DNA of 41,938 nucleotides, from NCBI GenBank assembly GCA_021797795.1, contig JAJZZB010000013.1, positions 1 to 41,938 on the forward strand, written 5' to 3'. The DNA is from Actinomycetes bacterium (lineage in GTDB: Bacteria > Actinomycetota > Acidimicrobiia > Acidimicrobiales > Bog-793). The position numbers were made by a program, and so were the translations under genes. Below are positions 22,938-35,288 of the stretch, in pieces (the stretch's first letter is position 1; each line of letters begins with the position of its first letter). Below the pieces are notes generated by a model. It saw nothing but the letters and a program-made list of their open reading frames with translations. It did no database searches and was not told the origin of the DNA.

Positions 22938-23550
22938 CTTGTGCCATCGGCGGCTCGGTGCGAGGACCCGTGCGTCCTTCTTCTCTCGACGCACTGGCAG
23001 GAGTGTCAATGGTGGTCAGCGAGCAGCGTGCCGTGATGTCGGCTACGTTGCCCGACGCCGGGGACTCCCTCGCCCTCGGCATGACCCCCACCGTGAGAGA
23101 GCGGCGCCCTCATTCCCCCGAAGAGGGCGCCGCCTCTCGCGTGCGGGACGGGTCCCGGAGAGGCGAGGCGATGAGCGCGAGCGTCTGCGGGGGAACGCGT
23201 CCCGCGCTCCCCCGCCAGGGTGCGCAGCACCCTTGACCGCCTGGCGGGCGACGGCTACGGCCGCCTGGCGTCGGAGATCGACGCGATCTTCTTCAATCTC
23301 GGGGGCGTGATCATCGAGATCGAGGGCAGAGGCGCCTTCGTACGGCGGAGTCGGTGGCTCGCTCCTGCCTCGCGGCGTCCCTCGACATTCTCCTGCAGGA
23401 GCGTCAGCCTCCTCCGGTCTGTCGTCTGGTCGAACTGGAAGCCGCCTCGTCGTCAGCGCTTCGAGCGCGCCAGCCGTGCCAGCTCGACTCGGCTCTGGGG
23501 AACAGGTTGCCGCTGGCCCGGCTCGCTGGGGCAAAACGAGTGGCTTCGCG
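22938..23550. other. Gene-poor stretch with a strong hairpin
   Basis: No intact gene is supported between the AraC-type fragment and cobA. A hairpin lies at 23095-23138: GCGGCGCCCTC and its exact complement, extended by CTCTC/GAGAG with one bulge, around a 12-base loop. It has no T-tract. At 23277 a short + frame reads IDAIFFNLGGVIIEIEG, which resembles the start of a HAD hydrolase with the nucleophile Asp changed to Asn; it then loses similarity. It may be a gene relic, but the match is too short to call. Confidence 0.5.
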
Positions 23551-24282
23551 TCAGACGAACTGGTTGTCCGCCAACGCTCCCAGGGTGGCTCCGCCGAGGG
23601 CGGCCACTGCACCGATGACGATGACGGCCGGCGACGTCACGTCGAGCGACGCCAGTCCTTCGAGCTTGGCGCGCACGACGTGCTGGCCCGGGGTGCAGGC
23701 TCGCTCGATCACAGCGAGCGGGGTGTGGGCGGCCAGCCCTCCGCTGATCAGGTGCCTGGCGATCGTCTCACGCTGTTCGACTCCCATGAGAATGACGAGC
23801 GTCATGCCGCGGCGGCACAACTCGGCAAAGTCGATCTCCGGGTCGAGCCCGGCGTGTCCGGTGACGATGACGGCCCCGCAGGCAATGCCGCGGTGGGTGA
23901 CGGGGATTCCGGCAACCGCTGGAGCGGCGATGGCGCTGGTCACGCCGGGAACGATCTCGACCGGCACGCCTGCCTCGCGCAGCACGATCAACTCCTCTCC
24001 ACCCCGGCCGAAAACGAACGGGTCCCCGCCCTTCAGCCGGACGACGCAGTCATGACGCTTGGCGAGCGAGACGAGCAGGGCGTTGATGAGCCCCTGCGAC
24101 GCCGCCATCCCCTTGTGCTTGCCGACGTCGATCCGCTCTGCACCCGAGGGGATGAGCGCCAGCACGTCTTGGGCGACGAGGCGGTCGTGGACGACGACCT
24201 CCGCCCTCTCGAGTAGGCGGAAGCCCCGCATCGTCAGGGTGTCGACGCCGCCCGGTCCGGCACCGACGAGATAGACCGTCAC
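23551..24282 (-). CDS. cobA: Uroporphyrinogen-III C-methyltransferase (SUMT)
   Basis: 243 aa from GTG 24282 (VTVYLVGAGPGGVDTLTMRG); the track's 357-aa form has a shadow N-terminus. SUMT motifs are in order: RLLERAEVVVHDRLV, GKHKG, LKGGDPFVFGRGGEEL, EIVPGVTSAIAAPAVAGIPV and GVEQRETIARHLI. It uses two S-adenosylmethionines to make precorrin-2, the entry to siroheme and cobalamin. It follows the siroheme reductase and the F420 protein in the same direction (193-bp gap), so siroheme supply for that reductase is the likely purpose. The oxidase/ferrochelatase-side partner is the SirC gene at 28920. Confidence 0.93.
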   Translation of the reverse strand: MTVYLVGAGPGGVDTLTMRGFRLLERAEVVVHDRLVAQDVLALIPSGAERIDVGKHKGMAASQGLINALLVSLAKRHDCVVRLKGGDPFVFGRGGEELIVLREAGVPVEIVPGVTSAIAAPAVAGIPVTHRGIACGAVIVTGHAGLDPEIDFAELCRRGMTLVILMGVEQRETIARHLISGGLAAHTPLAVIERACTPGQHVVRAKLEGLASLDVTSPAVIVIGAVAALGGATLGALADNQFV

Positions 24283-24475
24283 GACTCGACCGTTCGGCGC
24301 AAGAGGTCGCCGAGGCACCCGCCCCGCCTGTCCCCGCCTCGTCGGCCGATGACGCTCAGCACGTGACTGAAGGGTTGGGAGGGGACGCCGTCGGCCACGG
24401 AGCGGCGGGCTTCTCCACACGGCCGGAGACGTCCCGCCTGAGGATGGGAGTGACGCCTCTGAGCCGGGCACTCCA

Positions 24476-25822
24476 TCAGCAGGTGACTTCGAAGTGGTGG
24501 CTGCGAAACTTCGCCGGCGCCTGGACCGACCGTTCACCGCCCGCGTAGAGATCGAGGTGCTCGGTGTAGCTTGTCCAGAGCGGTCCCTCGGGGTCGAACG
24601 GCCGGGCGAGAGAGCGCACCGCACGATTGCGGTCCCTCGCCGCGGCCCGCACGACCGGCGAGAGGTCCTCGAGGGGGCGCACGTCGAGTGCTCGGGTCAC
24701 CGCCTCCCAGGCGTCCCTGCCTGCCTCGGTCCGCACGAGCACGGTGGAGCGGCCGGGCTCGCTCGCGAGGTTCCCGACGGCGAGGTCGGCACCGAGCCCC
24801 GTGAAGTCCGCGCACTCGTCGCAGCCCTTCAGACTCGCCGCATGGAACTCCTTCACCGGACGGCGCAGCAGCTCGGTGGTCGCCGAGCGCACGACCAGAT
24901 CACCGTCCCGCACGTCGACCCGAGCCGCTTGCGACGTCGCCACGCCGGCCGCACCGACCGCCTCCTCGAGCTTGTCGGGCTCGAACGACCTGGTGCAGAA
25001 CAGCCCGATCGCCAGCACCGCGGCGCCCGCCGACGACCGCCGGTACTTCCAGGGGAATCGCTGGAGCGCCCGCAGCACGCTGACCTGGCACGGCGTTCCG
25101 ACGAACGCGATCCGCGCCACACCGTTCGGCAGGGGCTCGTTGAGGACCGTGAGGGGGTGGGACTGGTGATAGACGCTCCCGGCGGCGGCGCGTACCTCCT
25201 CCGGCGAGGTCGCCAGGAAGGGCTCGCCGTGGAAGGCGTCGATCCGACGGGTCACGATCGCGCCGTCGATGAAGCCGGTCGAAAGCAGCTGGCACAGGAG
25301 CGCGGTGACCGCGCCCCCGTCCTGGACCTCGGCCGCCCTTGTACGTCCCGTGACCGACCAGGCCGAGTCGATGCGGCCGAGCTCGATCGGGACGGCCGTG
25401 TCACCTGCTGCCCTCGACCCGCTGGCGTCGGTCGCGTAGGCGTGCAGCGCCTCGGTCCTCAGCCCGGCGAGCGGGCAGTAGTCCCAGCACGCCGAGCAGC
25501 CGGTGCACATCTTGACGAGAGTCGGCTTGCCGTCCTCGGCGACGCCGATCGAGCGCGACGGGCAGGCGGCGATGCACCCTCCGCAGCCCACGCAGCGCCC
25601 GGCATCGATGACCGCGGCGGCGGTCTTGTGGAACCAGATCTTGTCGGGCAGCTCGGGCACGCCGCCGGCGAGGGCGATCTCGTCGCGCAGGTCCGCCGCC
25701 GGATCGCCCAGCGGGGACCGCCATTGCTTCATCGCAGGGGCGCCCGCCCCGCGGTCCGCGCCGGCCCGGCGGTCCTCGACGAGGCTCATCGTGGTGCTCA
25801 TGTGCTCTTGGGCTTGGTTCAT
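24476..25822 (-). CDS. FrhB-type coenzyme F420-binding protein with 2x[4Fe-4S] ferredoxin domain
   Basis: 448 aa from ATG 25822, with GGAGGTG upstream; the track's 618-aa version has a shadow N-terminus. Residues ~60-125 form a bacterial two-cluster ferredoxin: CVGCGGCIAACP (Cys77,80,83,87) and CTGCSACWDYCP (Cys106,109,112,116). The rest is an FrhB/FdhB F420-dehydrogenase beta subunit: QDGGAVTALLCQLLSTGFID, AAGSVYHQSHPL, FVGTPCQVSVLRAL, AIGLFCTRSF and KGCDECADFTGLGADLAVGN. Family members bind FAD and F420 and pass electrons from F420H2 to Fe-S clusters. Its ATG overlaps the stop of the siroheme reductase by 4 bp (ATGA), implying coupled synthesis and a functional complex. The same domain order forms the N-terminal half of methanogen F420-dependent sulfite reductase. 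Confidence 0.88.
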   Translation of the reverse strand: MNQAQEHMSTTMSLVEDRRAGADRGAGAPAMKQWRSPLGDPAADLRDEIALAGGVPELPDKIWFHKTAAAVIDAGRCVGCGGCIAACPSRSIGVAEDGKPTLVKMCTGCSACWDYCPLAGLRTEALHAYATDASGSRAAGDTAVPIELGRIDSAWSVTGRTRAAEVQDGGAVTALLCQLLSTGFIDGAIVTRRIDAFHGEPFLATSPEEVRAAAGSVYHQSHPLTVLNEPLPNGVARIAFVGTPCQVSVLRALQRFPWKYRRSSAGAAVLAIGLFCTRSFEPDKLEEAVGAAGVATSQAARVDVRDGDLVVRSATTELLRRPVKEFHAASLKGCDECADFTGLGADLAVGNLASEPGRSTVLVRTEAGRDAWEAVTRALDVRPLEDLSPVVRAAARDRNRAVRSLARPFDPEGPLWTSYTEHLDLYAGGERSVQAPAKFRSHHFEVTC

Positions 25823-27495
25823 CGCGCACCTCCGTCCTTGGGCGGGGTTGCACGCGACGGCCCGCAGTTCCTTCCGCCCTCGGGCCGTTGGCCGCCGGTC
25901 CTCGCCACCTCCGCGGGGTGCGGTGCCGTTCCCACGCCCCTCCATGGCGTGAGCGTCTCGGAGAGGTCGTCGAGAGCCAGCTCGCCGCTGGCGACCGCGG
26001 TGAGGAGGGAGGTGATGCCGTCGACGGCGGCATCGGTCGGAACATCGCCCCTCGTCCACCGGGCGAGGCGTGCCGCCCCGGCGTCTCCCCCCAGCGCGAC
26101 GTCGAACCCGTCGTAGTAGTCCTCCCCGTCCTTGCCCATGGTGGCGCGGATCCCTATGTGGGCGGTCGGGATCTGCGCACAGGACGCCTTGCAACCTGAC
26201 ATGTGGATCCGCAGGCCGTCCAGGCGGTCCCACCCCTCTCGGGGCACTTCGGCGCGCAGGTGGTCGATGAGCGCTTGACCGTGAGGCTTCATGGCTTGGA
26301 TGGCGAACTTGCAGAACGGCGCGCTCGTGCACGCAACCACGCCCCGCTCGAAGGGGTCGGGCACAGGCTTCAGGCGCTCGAGCAACGGCTCGGCGAGCAG
26401 TGCGTCGACATCGGCGACCCCCGTCAGGATCACGTTCTGGCGCTGGGTGAGGCGCACCCGTCCGTCGCCGTGGAGCCGGGCACAGCGCGCGAGCTCGAAG
26501 AGCTCGTCGGCCGAGAGCCGACCCAGGGGAACGCAGAGCCCCACGTAGCTCGTGCCCTGTCGGTCTGGATGCACCCCGACGTGGTCTTCAGCGCGCCAGG
26601 TAGTGAGGTCCTCGCCCGCTGTCGGGGCGGCGAAGCCCAGGCGGGCACGCACCTCGGTGGCGACGCGATCGGGGCCGAGCTGGTGGACGAGGGCGCGGAA
26701 CCGGTTGAGGCCCGGGTTCTCGTAGTCGCCGTGCTCGGCGTACATCTGGAGCGCGGCGCGCACCACGGAAGGTGCCTGGTCGCGCTCGCAGAACAGGTCA
26801 AGCGCGGTCGCGAGCCGCGGATAGTCCGAGAGCCCGCCGCCGGCGTGGACGTTGAAACCGAGCGTGCCGCCTCTGCGCGCGGGAGTGAAGGCGACGCAGT
26901 GGATCCTGGCGACAGCGCAGTCCGTCGGGCAGGCGGTGAGCACGACCTTGAACTTGCGGGGGAGGAACGCGGTCAACCGGGGCTCGTCGCGGGCGATGGC
27001 ACCGATGGCGTCGACGATCGGTCCGACCTCGAAGGCCGCGTGCGGGTCCACGCCATCAACGGGGCAGGCCGTGACGTTGCGCATCGAGTTGCCGCACGCT
27101 TGCAGGGACCCGAGGCCCACCTCCCCGTAGCGCCGCCAGATCTCGGGGAGGTGCTCGAAGCGGATCCAATGGATCTGGAGGTCCTGGCGCGTCGTCACCT
27201 CGCCGAAGCGGTCCGGTTCACCCTGTGACCCCTCGGCGTGTACGGAGAAGTCGCGGACCACGCCGGCGAGCACGTCGACCTGAGCGGCCGTGAGCCGTCC
27301 GCCGGGGATCCGGGTGCGCAGCATGAAGGTGCCCTCGAAGCGGTCGTCGTAGACGCCGACCAAGCGGAGGCGAGCGTTGCCGACGCTGCCGCGGTCAGAG
27401 GGGTGCAGGTCCTCCCAGTGCCGTGGGCCGGCGGCCACGATCGCTGCCAGAATCTCCTCTGGGACCTGCTCGGCATGGAAGAGGGGTTCACGCAT
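25819..27495 (-). CDS. Siroheme/[4Fe-4S] sulfite or nitrite reductase
   Basis: 558 aa from ATG 27495 (GGGGAG six bases upstream). It has the duplicated ferredoxin-type nitrite/sulfite reductase layout: half-domain 1 with TFMLRTRIPGGRLTAAQ and ITTRQDLQIHWIR-like VTTRQDLQIHWIRFEHLPEIW, QACGNSMRNVTACPVDGVD, then a second ferrodoxin-like half (YVGLCVPLGRLSADELFELA, RLTQRQNVILTGV). The siroheme/cluster ligands are ACTSAPFCKFAI (C-x5-C) and HMSGCKASCAQIPTAHIG (C-x3-C). It performs the six-electron reduction of sulfite to sulfide or nitrite to ammonia. A nearby cysH relic and siroheme genes favour sulfite. Unusually, its coupled partner is an F420-binding protein rather than a ferredoxin or NADPH flavoprotein. 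Confidence 0.9.
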   Translation of the reverse strand: MREPLFHAEQVPEEILAAIVAAGPRHWEDLHPSDRGSVGNARLRLVGVYDDRFEGTFMLRTRIPGGRLTAAQVDVLAGVVRDFSVHAEGSQGEPDRFGEVTTRQDLQIHWIRFEHLPEIWRRYGEVGLGSLQACGNSMRNVTACPVDGVDPHAAFEVGPIVDAIGAIARDEPRLTAFLPRKFKVVLTACPTDCAVARIHCVAFTPARRGGTLGFNVHAGGGLSDYPRLATALDLFCERDQAPSVVRAALQMYAEHGDYENPGLNRFRALVHQLGPDRVATEVRARLGFAAPTAGEDLTTWRAEDHVGVHPDRQGTSYVGLCVPLGRLSADELFELARCARLHGDGRVRLTQRQNVILTGVADVDALLAEPLLERLKPVPDPFERGVVACTSAPFCKFAIQAMKPHGQALIDHLRAEVPREGWDRLDGLRIHMSGCKASCAQIPTAHIGIRATMGKDGEDYYDGFDVALGGDAGAARLARWTRGDVPTDAAVDGITSLLTAVASGELALDDLSETLTPWRGVGTAPHPAEVARTGGQRPEGGRNCGPSRATPPKDGGAR

Positions 27496-27964
27496 CGCCA
27501 CTCCCCATCTCGAGGCGGCGGGCCTCATCAATGGCACCCGCGCTCGGTCGTCTCGCTCCCCGCCCGGCACCGGCACGGGGGTCGTCCCCGGGGGTGCTAG
27601 CGGGCGTCGTCGGTGCGTGGCCGATGCGGGCGGTCCCCGTGACCAAACAGCGGCGGGCGCGCCCGCCCTTTTGTGTCGGGACGGTCCTCGGCATGGTCGT
27701 CGGTTCCCCCGGCAAGGAGATCACGTCTGCGGGGCGGGGCATTCGGCCCTGTCTGTGTCCAGAACTCGCCGTCACGTCGGCCGTCGCCCCGCGCGAGGCG
27801 GACGGCGCTCGGTGACCGGTGTCACGGCCCGTGTCGGCTCGTCGCCGCACGTCAGGTTCATCGTGGACGTGGCGCGAAAAGGGCTCTGTTCTGCGGGATG
27901 GACCCAGCGGGACCCGCGGCACCAATGGTCGACCGTCCAGTTTGTGCGTCCACGCCATGACGTC
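27496..27964 (-). other. Long 5' leader region of the siroheme reductase operon
   Basis: Between the predicted promoter (-10 at 27965-27970) and ATG 27495 lie ~460 bases with no convincing gene; the ORFs on either strand are Arg/Pro/Gly-rich. GC-rich hairpins are present, including the GGCGGGCG palindrome at 27653-27668. The region could hold a cis-regulatory RNA or simply be the scar of a lost gene; I could not match it to a known riboswitch. Confidence 0.4.
27653..27674 (+). terminator. Palindrome GGCGGGCGCGCCCGCC followed by CTTTT
   Basis: A perfect 16-bp palindrome followed on the + strand by a short T-run resembles an intrinsic terminator reading rightward, though its loop would be minimal. 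No rightward gene ends nearby. On the leftward transcript it would be a hairpin in the leader. Confidence 0.3.
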
Positions 27965-27994
27965 AATATATGACTAAATTAGTCACCTTTTCAA
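27965..27994 (-). promoter_or_regulatory. Promoter with embedded TGACTAAATTAGTCA operator
   Basis: On the reverse strand: -35 TTGAAA (27994-27989), an 18-bp spacer, and -10 TATATT (27970-27965). The spacer holds the perfect 15-bp dyad TGACTAAATTAGTCA (27971-27985), which touches the -10 box. A protein bound there would block or remodel RNA polymerase. The form resembles operators of Rrf2-family (IscR/NsrR/CymR-like) regulators, but no such regulator is in the window. It drives leftward transcription toward the siroheme reductase. Confidence 0.6.
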
Positions 27995-28014
27995 CTACGA
28001 AGCCGTTGGGGCTG

Positions 28015-28450
28015 CTGGGTCCTTCGGGCAGCCGTCGAGACCGCCGTCGGTGCCGGTGGCGAACGGGTTCACCTGACCAGCCCGGAGGCGGCGTCCCACG
28101 AGACGACCGGGGCGGCCGTCCTCTCGCGTCGGCCGTCGCGAGGCGAGCCATGCCAGCTCGCCCTCGAGAACGAGGCGCAGGGGACGACCATGCGCAGGCC
28201 GCAGCGACGGGTCGACCCGCACGGGGCGCTGGCCGCCCCCGGACCCGGGTGCGTCACCGTCAGGTCGAGCCCGTAGCGCGCCGGTGCCTCGTCGGCGAAG
28301 TCGGGCCTCTCCTCGAGGTGCGCCCCGCTGTCGTCGAGACCGCCGCTCCGAGGCCGGCGGACCGTCGGGTCGATCACCGCGACGTCGTGGAACGGCGCGG
28401 CGAGTACCAGGTCCGTCCCGAGCCGCTCGATGGCCCGCTCGGTCCGGGCG
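28015..28450 (-). pseudogene. cysH: Decayed cysH (APS/PAPS reductase)
   Basis: Across two frames the reverse strand spells a CysH: ERAIERLGTDLVLAAPFHDV, AVIDPTV, then DFADEAPARYGLDLTVTHPG, PCGSTRRCGLRMVVP, RTAAPVVSWDAASGLV and, shifted, QVNPFATGTDGG. Functional homologues read like ...LASFQDxVLID..., FLDTGxHFxETLDFxxxV, CCxLRKVxPL and APIVxWD.. VNPLATWTxxDV. Here the cysteine pair is broken (RRC), a frameshift separates the VSWD and NPFAT blocks, and the C-terminal ~80 residues with the second Cys pair are gone, ending at the operon promoter. CysH normally reduces activated sulfate to sulfite, directly upstream of sulfite reductase in assimilation. Confidence 0.7.
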
Positions 28451-28599
28451 CCCGAGTGCGCAGGAGGGTACCGGTCGTGGCCTGCTCGTGGCGAGCCTTG
28501 CTCGTCAGTGTGGCCGTCGCCTCGGTCACCGGGGCTCTTCGAGGAACGGAGCGGATCGTCTTGCGGGGCGGGCGTCCGCACCGGCTCGAACGACCCGTC

Positions 28600-28643
28600 T
28601 TGTGGCGGCGCCGTCCCGCCGCTATACATGACTTGCCAGGTCA
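28600..28643 (+). promoter_or_regulatory. Rightward promoter with TGAC-N7-GTCA element
   Basis: -35-like TTGTGG (28600-28605), a 17-bp spacer and -10 TATACA (28623-28628), followed immediately by TGACTTGCCAGGTCA (28629-28643). The outer halves (TGAC/GTCA, 7 bases apart) match those of the perfect dyad at 27971-27985, and both elements touch a -10 box. This would place the 58-codon ORF and sirC under the same regulator as the siroheme reductase operon (inference). Confidence 0.4.
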
Positions 28644-28737
28644 GGTTTAGGATCCGGCTCGCATACCGACGAGTGCGATCGGCGGGCGACCACGACGGTC
28701 GTGGCCCCGGTCAGCGACGACCCGACGGGACCACACG

Positions 28738-28914
28738 ATGATCATCGACACCATGACCGCGAAGACTCCCGCAGGCACCACGGACGTCCCTCGGTCGGGC
28801 GTCGGCCTCTACACCCCGGACACCGCGAGCCTCGTCCTCGAGGACGAGGGCACCAACGCCACAGTCGTCGCCGGCAGTCTCGGCGACCTCCGCTTGGCCG
28901 AGCCGGCGACCTGA
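28738..28914 (+). CDS. 58-aa protein of unknown function upstream of sirC
   Basis: Too short for the ORF track. The frame ATG...TGA encodes MIIDTMTAKTPAGTTDVPRS, then GVGLYTPDTASLVLEDEGTN and a short tail. Nearly every third position is G or C, like real genes here, and the stop lies 5 bases before the sirC GTG, which suggests translational coupling. An alternative start is ATG 28753. It has no cysteines, no membrane segment and no known domain, so it is not a CysX-like ferredoxin. Its position with siroheme synthesis hints at a link to sulfite/nitrite reduction. Confidence 0.55.
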   Translation: MIIDTMTAKTPAGTTDVPRSGVGLYTPDTASLVLEDEGTNATVVAGSLGDLRLAEPAT

Positions 28915-28919
28915 CGTTC

Positions 28920-29534
28920 GTGCCCAGCGACCACTATCCCGTCAGCCTGCTGCTGGCCGGCCAACCTTGCCTGGTGGTCGGGGGCGGGTCGGTGGCCGTC
29001 CGCAAGGCAGAGGGACTCGCCCGGAGCAGGGCTCGGGTGACGGTCGTCGCCTCCGACATCGACCCGGCGATCGAGCTGCTTCCCGTCGCCGTCGAGCGGC
29101 GCCCCTACCGGCGAGGGGAAGCGGGCCGCTACCGGCTCGTGATCACGGCCACCGGAGTCCCCGGGGTGGATGCCTCGGTGGCCGCCGACGCCGCAGCGGC
29201 AGGCGTCTGGGTGAACTGCGCCGACGACCCCGCCCATTGCACGTTCCTGCTGCCCGCCGTCCATCGCGACGGGCCGGTGACCGTGGCCGTGTCCACCGGC
29301 GGAGCCAGCCCCGCCCTCGCCACCTGGCTCCGGCGCCAGATCGTCGGAATACTCGGCGAAGGGCTGGGAGGGCTGGCCGAGGTGTTGGAGGAGGCCCGGC
29401 GGAGGGTCCAGGCGTCCGGCCGGCCCACCGAATCGCTCGACTGGCATGGCTTCCTCGACGGTCCGCTCACGAGGCTTGCCCTGGACGGCCGACTTGACGA
29501 GGCTCGCAAGCTCCTTGACGAGGCGGTCCGCTGA
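28920..29534 (+). CDS. Precorrin-2 dehydrogenase/sirohydrochlorin ferrochelatase-type (SirC/Met8/CysG-N)
   Basis: 204 aa from GTG 28920 (VPSDHYPVSLLLAGQPCLVV). The NAD fold is CLVVGGGSVAVRKAEGLARS, then RVTVVASDIDP, RLVITATGVPGVDASVAADA, VWVNCADDPAHCTFLLPAV and VTVAVSTGGASPALATWLRR, the SirC/CysG signature. It oxidises precorrin-2 to sirohydrochlorin and may or may not insert iron. With CobA at 23551 it covers two of the three siroheme steps. It is divergent from the siroheme reductase operon and shares its predicted operator type. Confidence 0.9.
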   Translation: MPSDHYPVSLLLAGQPCLVVGGGSVAVRKAEGLARSRARVTVVASDIDPAIELLPVAVERRPYRRGEAGRYRLVITATGVPGVDASVAADAAAAGVWVNCADDPAHCTFLLPAVHRDGPVTVAVSTGGASPALATWLRRQIVGILGEGLGGLAEVLEEARRRVQASGRPTESLDWHGFLDGPLTRLALDGRLDEARKLLDEAVR

Positions 29535-29987
29535 CCTCGGAGGACTGCAAGCCGAGCCGGGCACACTCAGACAACCATCGACGGCACCTGAGGGACCCGA
29601 TTGGAGGGTTGCGGGCGATGCGCCGCAGTTGTTCGCCTGCGGCGGCGGCCTTTGCGAGCAGGCATGCGGTCCGTGGCTGCGCGGCCTCGCCGTCGCGGAG
29701 GCGGCGCCTCGGCCACCCGACCCGGCAGGGCCGGCCGGGCTTCGTGACGAGTCCGATGCGGCGATGCGAAGCAGCTCCTCACCCAGGTGAAGGCGCTGTT
29801 GCGGGCCCTGATGCACACGGTCGGCGTAGAGGACGCGCATCGAAGCTGACCGGAACGGGCTCGTGCTGGACGATGGCGGCGGCGCTCGACGCTCCGTCGC
29901 CCACCGCGAGGGCTGCCCCGGGCGCCTTGTCACCCGATCTGCGGATGAGCCCGAACTCCACGCAACAAGCTCGGGGTACTCCGCCAC
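29535..29987. other. Intergenic stretch with no supported gene
   Basis: About 450 bases between sirC and the 3' end of the giant surface protein gene. Short ORFs on both strands lack motifs and have unlikely composition. Confidence 0.5.
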
Positions 29988-32900
29988 TCAGTGGTTGCCC
30001 GGATTCCCGAAGGTGGCCTGGTCGAGTGCCTTGATCGCCTCGAACAGGCTCTGACGCGAGCCGGAGGCGAGAGCCTGATCGGCGCCCTGCACAGCCGCCG
30101 CGTACTGGGACCAGTTGCCCGAGCCGTTGGCGAAGTCGAGAAGGCTCGTGAGCAGGTGAAGCCTCACGTCGGCAGCGAGGCGGCTCTGCTGGCTCTCGCG
30201 GTAGGAGTTCGGCGCAAGCAGGTGCTCGGCAGCTACCAGCGACGGGCTGGTGCCGGAGGCCGAGGCGAGGGCCTGGGCGAGGGGCGGGCTCAGGTAGCCA
30301 GCGATGCGGAGGTAACAGGTGAGCTGAGCGGCGGTCTGCTGGAGGTGGTGCTGGCGACCGGAGCTGGCGGGGAGGTCCGGATGGGTGGCGAGCCACTGGG
30401 CGAGGCGGAGCTGGCTGAGCCAGTAGCTCGATCCGAGCGGACGAGCCCCGAGCGGGGCGGTGACGACGACAGGGGTGGTGAGGACGGGCGCCGAGAGGGT
30501 GTCGGCGTCGGTGACCGAGGTCGTGACAAGATCCAGGCAGGCCGCCGGGAAGGTATGGGAGAAGCCGGTCGGCGAGGCGGAGTAGGGGTACCACCCCGTC
30601 GCAGGGTCGACCGGCCCGCTCGGTGTGGCGGCGGTCAGGGTCGTCGGGGAGGTCCCGTCGGCCCAGTCGGTCTGGAAGGTGAGCACCGCCTCCGGTGAGA
30701 TGTGCAGGGCCGTCGCCATCCAGGTGACCGGCGTGCCGACATGGGTGAAGACGGTGCCAGCCGTGCCGATCTGGCCGCCGCCCACGCTCTCGACGACGCT
30801 CGCCCCGGCGGTCGGGGCGAGGGTGGTCCCTTTCGGGGCGACGTCGTTGACCGTCACCGAGGTGCTGTGGGACACCGATGTCCCGTCGGTCTCGGCGATT
30901 GACACGTCGATCGGCTCGGTCACAGAGGGTCTTCCGGAGGGATCGAGGACCTCGTAGGTGTGGGTCGCCGAGAAGTGGCCGCCGGGCCCGACGACGACGG
31001 TGCTCGGCGGCGTGGCGTCACCCCAGGTGATCGTCGCCGTCTCGGTCTCCCCCGGCTCGGTGGCGGCGAGTGTGCCCTGCACGGTGACCGGGGTCATCAG
31101 GTTGGCGGTCGACGGCGAGACCTTGAGGGAGGCAATGGAGAGAGGCGTGTCGAGCACGGTCACCTGGCCGGTGGCCGGGGTGACGCCGCTGACCGAGGCG
31201 GTGACCGTGTAAGGGCTGGCGGTGCTCCCGGCGGTCTCGTCGGCGTAGGTGTGGCTGGCCTGGTACTGGCCGTTCGAGACCGTCACTGTCGAGGTTGTGC
31301 CGTCACCCCAGGCGATTTGGACGGTGGTCGCCGGGCTGTTCTCGACAGAGCCCGATGCCGTCACGCCGCCCCCCTCGTCGACCCAGGTGCGATCGAGCGA
31401 GAGGGAGATCGACGGCGCGGGCGTGGGCGGGGTCGTGCAGGTGCCCGTGTTGGTTCCGCTGTAGAGGCCGTCCAGGGTGCCCTGGCTCAGGCTGTGGTCG
31501 GTGGTGCTGGTGAGCGTCGAGTCGAGGGAGGTCGGCGAGGGGCCGGTGAAGCTGACGTCGTGGCCGAGCGAGCTCACCTGGATGCTCGTCGGGGACTGAG
31601 TCCCCTTGACGTAGCTCACTGTCGTCATGGCGCAGGTGATGGAGGTGGGCGCGGCCGGGTCGACGGCGTGAATCCGCCGGACCAGCTGGCCCGGGCGGGC
31701 ACCGGGCGGCACGGAGAGCCCGGCGGTGTCGAGTTGGGCCTTGACCGACGGATCGGCAAAGAGGTGGCGCGCCGAGGCGACCACGTCGGAGAAGGGCTGC
31801 GTGCAGAGCGGGGTGCCCTCGATGGCCGGGTCGGAGGAGCACAGCCCCTTGATGGTGAAGCTCGGCACGATCGTGACGCAGCCGAGGAGTCCACAGGGCC
31901 TCCAGCCGGGGAAGTCGTAGCCGTCGAGGGCGTACTGGAAGATGGCGGTGGTCGGGATGTCGAGCCAGCCGAAGCCCGACTTGTTGAGGCCAGCGTTGAC
32001 GCTGTTGACCCTCGAGGCGACCTGCTGGTAGAAGGAGAAGACCTTCTGCCAGGCCGGAGGTCCACCGCTGCCGAGGAATTGGAAGCCGGACTGGATGTCG
32101 CTCACCATCTGGTCGGCGCTGCCGGCGACGTAGGTCTGGTACCAGGCCGAAGTCGCCGTCGTGGCGGTGTGGACGGCCCCGGTGATGTGGGCGCCGGCCG
32201 TCTGGAACGCGGCCGAGGCCGTGTTGAACCAGTCGGTGAGGTTGAAGCCGGGATTGCTCAGGTCGAGGGACCCGGTGGCGTTCACACTGCCACTCAGGCC
32301 GCCCACGTCGATGGACCCGGAGAGGTGGAGCTTCTGGGTGCCGACGTCCAAGGTGAGGGTGCCAGATCCCCAGACGGACGCCTGGGTGGGATCGGTGTTG
32401 TAGGTGGCCGGATCGAGGAGCTGCCCGCCGCCCGAGATGTCGACCTGGACCGTGGTGGCGTTGATGGTGAAGCTCAGGTTGGTCGGCTGGAAGCTGAGCG
32501 GGCCGGCGGACCAGCCCGAAAGATGACCCTCCCCGGTGATCCCACTCGAGCTGATCGAGAGGAAGACGCTGGCGAGACAGGAGCTCGAGTCGCTCGAGCA
32601 GACCGAGCTGCGTGAGGGAGGGCTGCAGTCCGAGATCTGGCCGGTCGGGGCCGTGCCAGCGACGGCGGTGGCGCCCGAATTGGTGAGGACGAGGTCACCC
32701 GAGAGGTAGAGACCCTGGGAGAGGCAGAGCTGGGCATTGCTCACCGAGGAGTAGGAGAAGTAGAGGTTCCGGAGGGCAAGCGGGGGAAGGGAGCTCGTCG
32801 AGACGTCCTTGCCGCTCACCTCGTTGTAGAGGTCGACTAGGTCGGCCATGGTGATTCCGCGGTGGCTGCCGATCGCGAACCCGAGGAGGTTCACGTACGG

Positions 32901-35288
32901 CGGGGTGCCCTGCACAGCGAGGTCGACGGAGACCCCGAGGTCGGTCGAGCCGATCGTCACCGCCCCGTGCGCCCCGAGGGTGAGCGAGCCCCCGCCGCTC
33001 GAGCTGAGGCCGATCTGGAGGACGAGATCGTTGATGGTGAGGAACGAGGCCGGGTCGGGCAGGGTCCAGCCGCTCGTCGCGTTGCCGCCGGTGAGCTGCG
33101 CGGTGAGGCTGACCGAGGCGGACCCGCTCGAGGCCCCGATGGAGCCGGTGACCGACACATCCAGGCAGACGTCGCCCGATGGAAGCGAGCTCTGAAGGCC
33201 CTGGGGGCAGGTTTGCTTGCCCCCCTGGCCTGGCGCGAACAGCTCCATGTCCCCGCCGGCGCTGACCGAGAAGCTGCCCTTGGCCTCCGAGATCGAGAAG
33301 TGGAGCCTCACCTGTTGGATCGGCCCGGCCGAGATGGTGATCGTCGGGAGGTGGACCGTGAGGCTGGTGGTCGTGCCGCCGAACAGAGGGATGTGACCGT
33401 CGATCACGACCGGCCCGGTCAGCAGGTTGGTGCAGGCGGTCCCCGAGACCTTGAGCAGCCCGCAGAGGCCCGTCTGGATGGAGCCCGGCAACGTGACGCT
33501 CGCCGAAAGGTCCACTCCCCGGCGCATCTTCAAGGTGAACGAGCAGTTCGGGTCGCTCGAAGCACAGAGGAGGGGCTGGAAGTAGGCGAGGCTCGGCGCG
33601 TCGAGCTGGCTCGAGGGGATCGACAGGTCGGCGGTGGAGACGACGAGAGCGAGGCTCGGGAGGGTGAAGTTGGGCTTGAGAGTCGAGCCGAGGAGGTCGT
33701 CCAAGGTGAGGTTTGTCGAGGTGGGTCGGACGGCCACGAGCAGCGAGCTGGACGAGCCGACCTGGGCGCGAACGAGGATGTCGGCGCTGTAGGAGCCCGA
33801 GCCGAGCGTGACCGAGGCCGTCCCCTGCACGGCGATCGTGACTGAGCCGGTGCCAGGGACCTCAAGGGCGACGTCGAGCCCGGACACCTGGAGGTCGGGG
33901 GTGCCGGAGGGGAAGCTCGGCAGGCCCATGTCGCCGGCCAGGGTGGCAGCGTCCAAGGTGGCCGACGTCGTGAGCCCGACGCTGAGGCCGCTGCCGGAGC
34001 CGAGTCTCGCAGAGACAGTGAAGCTGGACCCGTCGACCGTGGCCTTCGCGTCGAGGCTCGCTGCCGTCGTGGCGCCGACTGACCAGCTGACGGTGGTGCT
34101 GTCGAGGGTCAGCCAGCTCTGGCCGAAGGCCTTGGTCACCTTCCCGAGCGAAGCGTCCATGGCCACGGTCACCCCGCCTGAGGCTTTGGTGATGGAGAGG
34201 TCGGCGGTCACCGGCACCTGGCCAGACCGCGGGAGCGTCACGTAGGCGGAGCCGCTGGCGCTCGCCGTCCAGGTGCCGGAGCCGCCCTTGATCGAGAGGG
34301 TGAGCGCGCTCAGGCTGAGCCAGCTCGGGGTCGACACGGTCGGGGTGACCGAGGCGGAGAGATCAAGACCGACGCTCACCGAAGGCGCCGAGGAGAGGCT
34401 GAAGCTGGCCGACTCTGTGAGGGCCCCCTCTAGGGTTACGCCGCTCGGGCTGACGCCGAGGTCCGTGAGGCCGGTCGCTACGGCTCCGCTCGCGGCGAGC
34501 GCGCCCCGGAAGCTGAGCCCGGACCCGGCGACCGAGAGGTTGTGCCCGAGGAAGCTCGCGGCCGAGCCGGGAAGCGTGGCGGTGTCGAGCGTGGTGCCCG
34601 AAGAGGAGGTGGTGAACGCGAGGAGCGCGCTCGAGAGCTGCACGCCGGGCCCGGGCGAGCCGGCCGAGACCAGGCTCGAGAGGCCGACGTCTCGAAAGCT
34701 GAGGACGACGGAGAAGGTCGGGCTCGTCGCCGTCGCCGACGACCAGCTCCCGACGACGAGGAGGCCGGCCGGCTGGCCGAGCACGTTCGTCGCCCCCGAG
34801 GCGCCCTGGAGGGTGAGCGTCGTGCAGCCGCTCGTCGCGCTGGAGGGCTCGGTCGCAAGGGAGAGTTGGCTGGCATCGAGCTGGGCAAAGCTGCTCGGGC
34901 CGATCGGCAGACTCACCGTTGTGGTCCCGGCGTCGGCCTCGAGAGCAGAGGCAACCGCCGAGCAGGTCATCGAAGTGACGTTCACCAAGGTGGTGCCGCT
35001 GGCGGTGACACCCGGGCCGGTGACGTCGGCGCTCAAGGTCGCGGTCGCCTGGGCACGGCCGACAAGCAAGAGGAGGGCGACGGCTATCCCCGCGAGAAGC
35101 CCAGCGGCGACCACGAGCATCAAGGCGAGCGGGGCCCGTGGTCGACGCGCCTTACCCGAGCCGAGATGCGCCGTTGTGCCAACCTGAGCTGCCGCCGAAC
35201 TCTCGCCCCCTGCCGTGCCGTCCACTCGGCTGCTCCCCCATCTGCTGCTCCCCAGATGGCGACCGCCGTCCCCAGCTTCGGTCGCCAC
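29988..35288 (-). CDS. Giant membrane-anchored surface protein with PKD-like domains
   Basis: 1766 aa, starting at GTG 35288 with GAAGGG upstream. A short Gly/Ser-rich cytoplasmic N-terminus (~1-50) is followed by one hydrophobic segment (~53-77, APLALMLVVAAGLLAGIAVA) ending AQA, a signal peptide or anchor. The next ~1200 residues are Ser/Thr/Gly-rich, low in charge, with repeating beta-strand-like units (SVGLDLSASVTPTVS, SLDAKATVDGSSFTV). Around 1300-1600 lie three PKD/Ig-like modules: QIAWGDGTTSTVTV...SHTY, ATITWGDATPPSTVVV...THTY, and FQTDWADGTSPTTL. The C-terminus is helical and has no LPXTG signal. Probably an adhesin or envelope-layer protein; no enzymatic motif seen. It has no operon partner. 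Confidence 0.75.
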   Translation of the reverse strand: MATEAGDGGRHLGSSRWGSSRVDGTAGGESSAAAQVGTTAHLGSGKARRPRAPLALMLVVAAGLLAGIAVALLLLVGRAQATATLSADVTGPGVTASGTTLVNVTSMTCSAVASALEADAGTTTVSLPIGPSSFAQLDASQLSLATEPSSATSGCTTLTLQGASGATNVLGQPAGLLVVGSWSSATATSPTFSVVLSFRDVGLSSLVSAGSPGPGVQLSSALLAFTTSSSGTTLDTATLPGSAASFLGHNLSVAGSGLSFRGALAASGAVATGLTDLGVSPSGVTLEGALTESASFSLSSAPSVSVGLDLSASVTPTVSTPSWLSLSALTLSIKGGSGTWTASASGSAYVTLPRSGQVPVTADLSITKASGGVTVAMDASLGKVTKAFGQSWLTLDSTTVSWSVGATTAASLDAKATVDGSSFTVSARLGSGSGLSVGLTTSATLDAATLAGDMGLPSFPSGTPDLQVSGLDVALEVPGTGSVTIAVQGTASVTLGSGSYSADILVRAQVGSSSSLLVAVRPTSTNLTLDDLLGSTLKPNFTLPSLALVVSTADLSIPSSQLDAPSLAYFQPLLCASSDPNCSFTLKMRRGVDLSASVTLPGSIQTGLCGLLKVSGTACTNLLTGPVVIDGHIPLFGGTTTSLTVHLPTITISAGPIQQVRLHFSISEAKGSFSVSAGGDMELFAPGQGGKQTCPQGLQSSLPSGDVCLDVSVTGSIGASSGSASVSLTAQLTGGNATSGWTLPDPASFLTINDLVLQIGLSSSGGGSLTLGAHGAVTIGSTDLGVSVDLAVQGTPPYVNLLGFAIGSHRGITMADLVDLYNEVSGKDVSTSSLPPLALRNLYFSYSSVSNAQLCLSQGLYLSGDLVLTNSGATAVAGTAPTGQISDCSPPSRSSVCSSDSSSCLASVFLSISSSGITGEGHLSGWSAGPLSFQPTNLSFTINATTVQVDISGGGQLLDPATYNTDPTQASVWGSGTLTLDVGTQKLHLSGSIDVGGLSGSVNATGSLDLSNPGFNLTDWFNTASAAFQTAGAHITGAVHTATTATSAWYQTYVAGSADQMVSDIQSGFQFLGSGGPPAWQKVFSFYQQVASRVNSVNAGLNKSGFGWLDIPTTAIFQYALDGYDFPGWRPCGLLGCVTIVPSFTIKGLCSSDPAIEGTPLCTQPFSDVVASARHLFADPSVKAQLDTAGLSVPPGARPGQLVRRIHAVDPAAPTSITCAMTTVSYVKGTQSPTSIQVSSLGHDVSFTGPSPTSLDSTLTSTTDHSLSQGTLDGLYSGTNTGTCTTPPTPAPSISLSLDRTWVDEGGGVTASGSVENSPATTVQIAWGDGTTSTVTVSNGQYQASHTYADETAGSTASPYTVTASVSGVTPATGQVTVLDTPLSIASLKVSPSTANLMTPVTVQGTLAATEPGETETATITWGDATPPSTVVVGPGGHFSATHTYEVLDPSGRPSVTEPIDVSIAETDGTSVSHSTSVTVNDVAPKGTTLAPTAGASVVESVGGGQIGTAGTVFTHVGTPVTWMATALHISPEAVLTFQTDWADGTSPTTLTAATPSGPVDPATGWYPYSASPTGFSHTFPAACLDLVTTSVTDADTLSAPVLTTPVVVTAPLGARPLGSSYWLSQLRLAQWLATHPDLPASSGRQHHLQQTAAQLTCYLRIAGYLSPPLAQALASASGTSPSLVAAEHLLAPNSYRESQQSRLAADVRLHLLTSLLDFANGSGNWSQYAAAVQGADQALASGSRQSLFEAIKALDQATFGNPGNH

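Follow-up and report, generated by a model that had tools for sequence, protein, structure and literature searches.

The window (the whole 41,938-nucleotide stretch of DNA analysed here) is contig C314 of G000, a draft MAG of 3.8 Mb in 324 contigs that is 93.75% complete. The genes of interest lie in it in the order precorrin-2 dehydrogenase, dead cysH, siroheme sulfite/nitrite reductase (SiR), FrhB-like protein and uroporphyrinogen-III C-methyltransferase (SUMT), and the features are as follows:

23551–24288, minus strand: SUMT, for siroheme synthesis (Pfam TP_methylase; NCBIfam cobA_cysG_Cterm above cutoff).
24476–25681, minus strand: FrhB-like protein with an N-terminal 4Fe-4S ferredoxin domain (Pfam FrhB_FdhB_N/C and Fer4).
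25819–27495, minus strand: SiR, intact (Pfam NIR_SIR and NIR_SIR_ferr; PDB alignment; pN/pS).
27965–27991: predicted palindromic regulatory site, upstream of SiR and downstream of the dead cysH (motif score 48.8, the best in the set; zero-mismatch match in the genome scan).
28006–28535, core 28072–28443, minus strand: cysH remnant (tblastn and frameshift-aware alignment to the intact CysH of relatives; CysH tree).
28623–28649: the palindrome again, in the former promoter region upstream of the dead cysH (score 28.4, not a seed; zero-mismatch match in the genome scan).
28917–29534, plus strand: precorrin-2 dehydrogenase of the CysG N-terminal type (NCBIfam cysG_Nterm above cutoff).

A 1766-residue open reading frame with no Pfam match (29988–35288, minus strand) adjoins the cluster, and a Mutator-family transposase gene is present on the same contig (38741–40108).

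The original prediction placed a dead cysH directly upstream of SiR, and this was borne out. The four CysH motifs that it reported in two frames are all present on the minus strand: DFADEAPARYGLDLTVTHPG, PCGSTRRCGLR and APVVSWDAA are contained in the open reading frame at 28069–28629, and NPFATGTD is in a different frame just downstream of it. When the window was searched by tblastn with the intact CysH proteins of relatives, the best match was to that of G042 (45% identity over 129 amino acids, E = 1e-23). The frameshift-aware search that had been proposed likewise found CysH similarity: a frameshift-tolerant alignment to G042 CysH scored 323 and 12 shuffled controls scored 155 or less, which rules out a chance resemblance. 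This alignment covers residues 26–201 of the 246-residue reference, and 91 of its 166 aligned positions are identical. Several frameshifts flank the middle segment on both sides, the Cys-Cys pair of intact CysH (PRCCELRK) is Arg-Cys in the remnant (RRCGLRM), and the alignment stops short of the GC-x-P/KTECGLH catalytic C-terminus, just as a broken Cys pair and a missing C-terminal end had been described. Our best estimate of the remnant's extent, ~28006–28535, slightly exceeds the 28015–28450 first given. The open reading frame has no PAPS/APS reductase match among the Pfam (PF01507) or NCBIfam cysH models at E ≤ 1, and a tblastx search there returned nothing but noise from GC-rich frames. Judged by its alignments, the remnant is a genuine cysH pseudogene; the titles and abstracts that were searched contain no description of a pseudogenised cysH in acid mine Actinobacteria.

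The neighbouring reductase and siroheme genes, by comparison, are intact, again as predicted: SiR has a pN/pS of ~0.2 against close relatives and is under purifying selection, and both siroheme genes match their Pfam or NCBIfam models. SiR carries the cluster/siroheme motifs C-x5-C (CTSAPFC) and C-x3-C (CKASC). Among solved structures its best matches are plant nitrite reductases (1e-61), followed by M. tuberculosis NirA/SirA (4e-39), and in NCBIfam it scores best against the ferredoxin-nitrite reductase model, though below that model's cutoff. The anion site reads LPRKFK (Lys-x-Lys) both in this SiR and in a second copy on contig C73 of the same genome, whereas tobacco nitrite reductase (3b0l) has LPRKWN, with Asn where SiR has Lys; according to PMC10229431, the two anion-site lysines are a conserved feature of sulfite reductases. 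By its domains, Cys motifs and Lys-x-Lys, SiR fits an assimilatory siroheme sulfite reductase, sulfite being its predicted substrate. The FrhB-like protein aligns at 1e-35 to structures of F420-dependent sulfite reductase (Fsr), in their FrhB half, and is the likely electron donor of SiR. We infer that the two form a two-protein sulfite reductase driven by F420H2 or ferredoxin, which could be a split F420-dependent sulfite reductase in Actinobacteria; no actinobacterial FrhB-SiR pair is described in the titles and abstracts searched. At all loci examined, the gene after SiR encodes an FrhB-like protein that includes a ferredoxin domain.

In the profile search of G000, PF01507 had a single strong hit, which lies on contig C206. 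This CysH (L010:9741-10418) is complete at 226 residues, matches PF01507 at 1e-36 and NCBIfam phosphoadenylyl-sulfate reductase at 1e-67 (227.8 bits; cutoff 154), and keeps the CC pair, the GC motif and KTECGLH. The claim of a sulfate assimilation pathway interrupted at APS/PAPS reductase is consequently not supported, and another cysH in the cell, which the original prediction had listed as one alternative, is what we find; as far as the gene content of the genome tells, the pathway is not cut at APS/PAPS reduction. The wider genome search that it proposed thus recovered a second cysH, and it found no Sat, CysD or APS kinase in the G000 draft assembly. In G001, which belongs to the same genus, cysD and then an APS kinase-like frame are on one small contig, and in the related G007 cysD-cysN-cysC lie in a row, so a single gap in the assembly could be enough to conceal all of cysDNC; sulfate activation may be absent from the genome, but such a gap is an equally likely explanation. 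Almost every intact CysH of the family, that of C206 included, has C-A-P-T (or C-A-P-V) in place of the CxxC of its 4Fe-4S site, and one of the four usual cluster cysteines, the fourth, is therefore missing (Thr in most, including C206), with CC and KTECGLH retained.

In the family members G004, G005, G006, G011, G017 and G019 (whose contig terminates inside SiR) the genes have the order uppS-precorrin-2 dehydrogenase // cysH-SiR-FrhB. The comparison of the locus in relatives, also suggested at the outset, thus puts an intact cysH in the slot of the remnant; the precorrin-2 dehydrogenase gene is the divergent neighbour that marks this ancestral slot and has the same position in relatives. On C206 of G000, and in G001, G007, G009, G018 and G023, only uppS and cysH are found, with no dehydrogenase, SiR or FrhB beside them. 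Whole-genome searches of G001, G009, G018, G023, G003, G012 and G021 found no PF01077. Genomes that have cysH and no PF01077 sulfite/nitrite reductase include three that are >90% complete (G003, G018 and G023) as well as G001, G009 and G021. The C206 locus is best read as the ancestral uppS locus after loss of SiR, FrhB and the dehydrogenase. The window locus is its reverse, with living SiR, FrhB and siroheme genes and a dead cysH, and each half-locus seems to supply what the other lacks. The second SiR-FrhB cluster of G000, on C73, has 86% nucleotide identity to that of the window over 3.7 kb.

A scan of genome contigs returned seven SiR loci in MAGs titled Actinomycetes bacterium, of which six (L112–L117) are 86–90% identical to the window SiR and the seventh 69%. 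The operonic SiRs of its own family are 42–50% identical to it, and the SiR of G007 is 64% identical. The background identity, from few sampled genes in two of these six MAGs, has a median of 52% and a maximum of 68% between G000 and G042 (n = 10 sampled reciprocal best hits), and a median of 48% and a maximum of 72.5% between G000 and G044 (n = 4). The CysD proteins of G042, G043, G045 and G046 are 64–65% identical to G001 CysD, and those of family members 71–87%. In the CysH tree the remnant groups with G042, G043, G045 and a G041 fragment (clade support 0.93), and C206 CysH falls in its own family, apart from the remnant. Because the SiR identity is far above the genomic background and the remnant groups with another lineage, the window cluster was probably acquired horizontally.

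Some of the related clusters have also lost cysH. In locus L113 (G041) a C-terminal piece is all of cysH that precedes SiR; its identity to G042 is 77% over 62 residues, and it reads KTERGLH instead of KTECGLH. L116 (G044) has cysH scraps before SiR, and C73 of the window's own genome has an 18-residue scrap there. These scraps before three related SiR copies look like the same decay at other stages. For L114, L115 and L117 a remnant was rejected because the dehydrogenase and SiR genes are immediate neighbours there, and cysH is elsewhere, where it adjoins cysD; candidate remnants in L118 and L112 were likewise rejected, their alignments being no better than shuffles. Intact cysH genes are found at other places in G042, G043, G045 and G046.

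The palindrome listed above, TGAYY-N5-RGTCA with A/T-rich flanks (matrix built from 16 upstream sites), precedes both SiR copies (C314 and C73), and C206 cysH has a weaker match (score 26) that is among the motif seeds. The matrix also picked out sites immediately before cysD in G001, G006 and G007, which had been held out from motif building, and none in 209 kb of other G000 contigs. The scan of the G000 genome gave 8 forward and 8 reverse matches and a reversed-pattern control gave 0; several of the two-mismatch sites look like chance. In the same genome, palindromes also precede a DsrE-like gene, a DUF4395 gene and cysO-cysM (L230:3124-3620, L231:4457-5080 and L232:5200-6467), and these sites recur in G001 or match without mismatch. 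The cysO-cysM pair consists of ThiS-family and PALP genes and adjoins a gene whose start is glutamate racemase-like. Since the palindrome is common to SiR, cysH, cysO-cysM and the cysDNC of relatives, SiR is apparently still a member of a sulfur regulon. A long leader (27496–27960) separates the SiR start from the palindrome and is partly conserved with C73 (74% over 147 bases); an Rfam search of 23500–29700 gave no match, so the leader corresponds to no known riboswitch.

The explanation that we consider probable as a whole is that G000 has a native cysH on C206 together with an acquired window cluster in which a redundant cysH has decayed. The ancestral family locus would have been uppS-precorrin-2 dehydrogenase // cysH-SiR-FrhB, reduced in the native C206 locus to uppS and a living cysH, and the window cluster (dehydrogenase // cysH-SiR-FrhB-SUMT) would be a version probably acquired by horizontal transfer. 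The acquired cysH, redundant with the native copy, would then have decayed, and, with the native SiR gone, selection would have maintained SiR, FrhB and the siroheme genes. The palindrome between the dead cysH and SiR may be the control element of SiR itself, in which case the loss of cysH would not have been polar. Sulfite made by C206 CysH would be reduced by SiR with electrons that probably come from F420H2 or ferredoxin via FrhB.

Three other explanations were weighed against this one. The original prediction took the decay as a hint that the reductase had been kept for a different job, and cysH might indeed have died in a cell that no longer assimilates sulfate and whose SiR was recruited for nitrite reduction or sulfite detoxification. 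The apparent lack of Sat, CysD and APS kinase in the assembly would agree with this, as would the closeness of SiR to plant nitrite reductase structures and to the ferredoxin-nitrite reductase model (below cutoff). However, the intact cysH on C206, the Lys in LPRKFK where 3b0l has Asn (two lysines being conserved in sulfite reductases; PMC10229431) and a regulatory site in common with cysteine and sulfate-assimilation genes all argue against it, and we regard a change of job as unsupported and improbable. It is about equally doubtful that the cluster is an old, vertically inherited one whose cysH was duplicated to C206 before the operonic copy decayed. The dehydrogenase // cysH-SiR-FrhB order common to the family and the intact cysH genes at other places in G042, G043, G045 and G046 fit such a relocation, but C206 cysH occupies the ancestral place beside uppS and clusters with its own family, the remnant clusters with another lineage, and the SiR identity is far above the genomic background.

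The window contig could also come from another actinobacterium in the community, with C206 cysH then being in a different cell. No window gene was matched in 417 kb sampled from same-genus G001, so the assignment of the window to G000 rests on composition; close SiR homologues are present in other MAGs, and G001 (76% complete) has no SiR. Against such mis-binning, the tetranucleotide profile fits G000 best (0.94 for the window, with 0.90 for the next genome, and 0.91 for C73) and the cluster is present on two separate G000 contigs, so we give mis-binning only a small chance.

If native cysH plus an acquired cluster is the correct reading, a pathway operon has been rebuilt at different places from two incomplete halves, one native and one acquired, and a single locus is a misleading guide to the pathway. 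Conservation of the SiR-FrhB pair points to an assimilatory sulfite reductase linked to F420 beyond the archaea, and the palindrome in common is a testable sulfur regulon in uncultured Actinobacteria. A broader idea, which we offer tentatively and think rather less likely to be right than wrong, is that in acid-water Actinobacteria the SiR-FrhB-siroheme cluster is a mobile, F420H2-driven two-protein assimilatory sulfite reductase that plugs into hosts with only a native cysH and sheds its own cysH each time, the separated steps being co-expressed by a common regulator with a TGAYY-N5-RGTCA operator.

Redundant-gene decay after transfer or displacement is similar in that one member of a functionally equivalent pair is pseudogenised; it differs in that here the losses at the two loci are complementary and several related cluster copies show decay of the same gene. 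Fsr resembles the SiR-FrhB pair in combining an FrhB-type domain with a siroheme reductase and in its two conserved anion-site lysines. Fsr is, however, a fused protein with a single repeat, whereas the window, like all relatives examined, has separate SiR and FrhB open reading frames and a reductase of the two-repeat plant nitrite reductase/NirA-like type. In Mycobacterium the cysH and SiR genes are adjacent. The window is like the actinobacterial cysH-SiR clusters of Mycobacterium and Corynebacterium glutamicum in that cysH adjoins a sulfite reductase gene in a cysteine pathway context. It differs from the C. glutamicum assimilatory cluster, fpr2-cysIXHDNYZ (PMC1266029), in that its cysH is dead, with the living copy on another contig, and in having an FrhB-type partner rather than Fpr2. 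Regulons of the Rrf2 family (IscR/CymR type) likewise have a short palindrome before genes of cysteine biosynthesis and sulfur assimilation, and the palindrome found here seems to resemble Rrf2/IscR type 1 sites.
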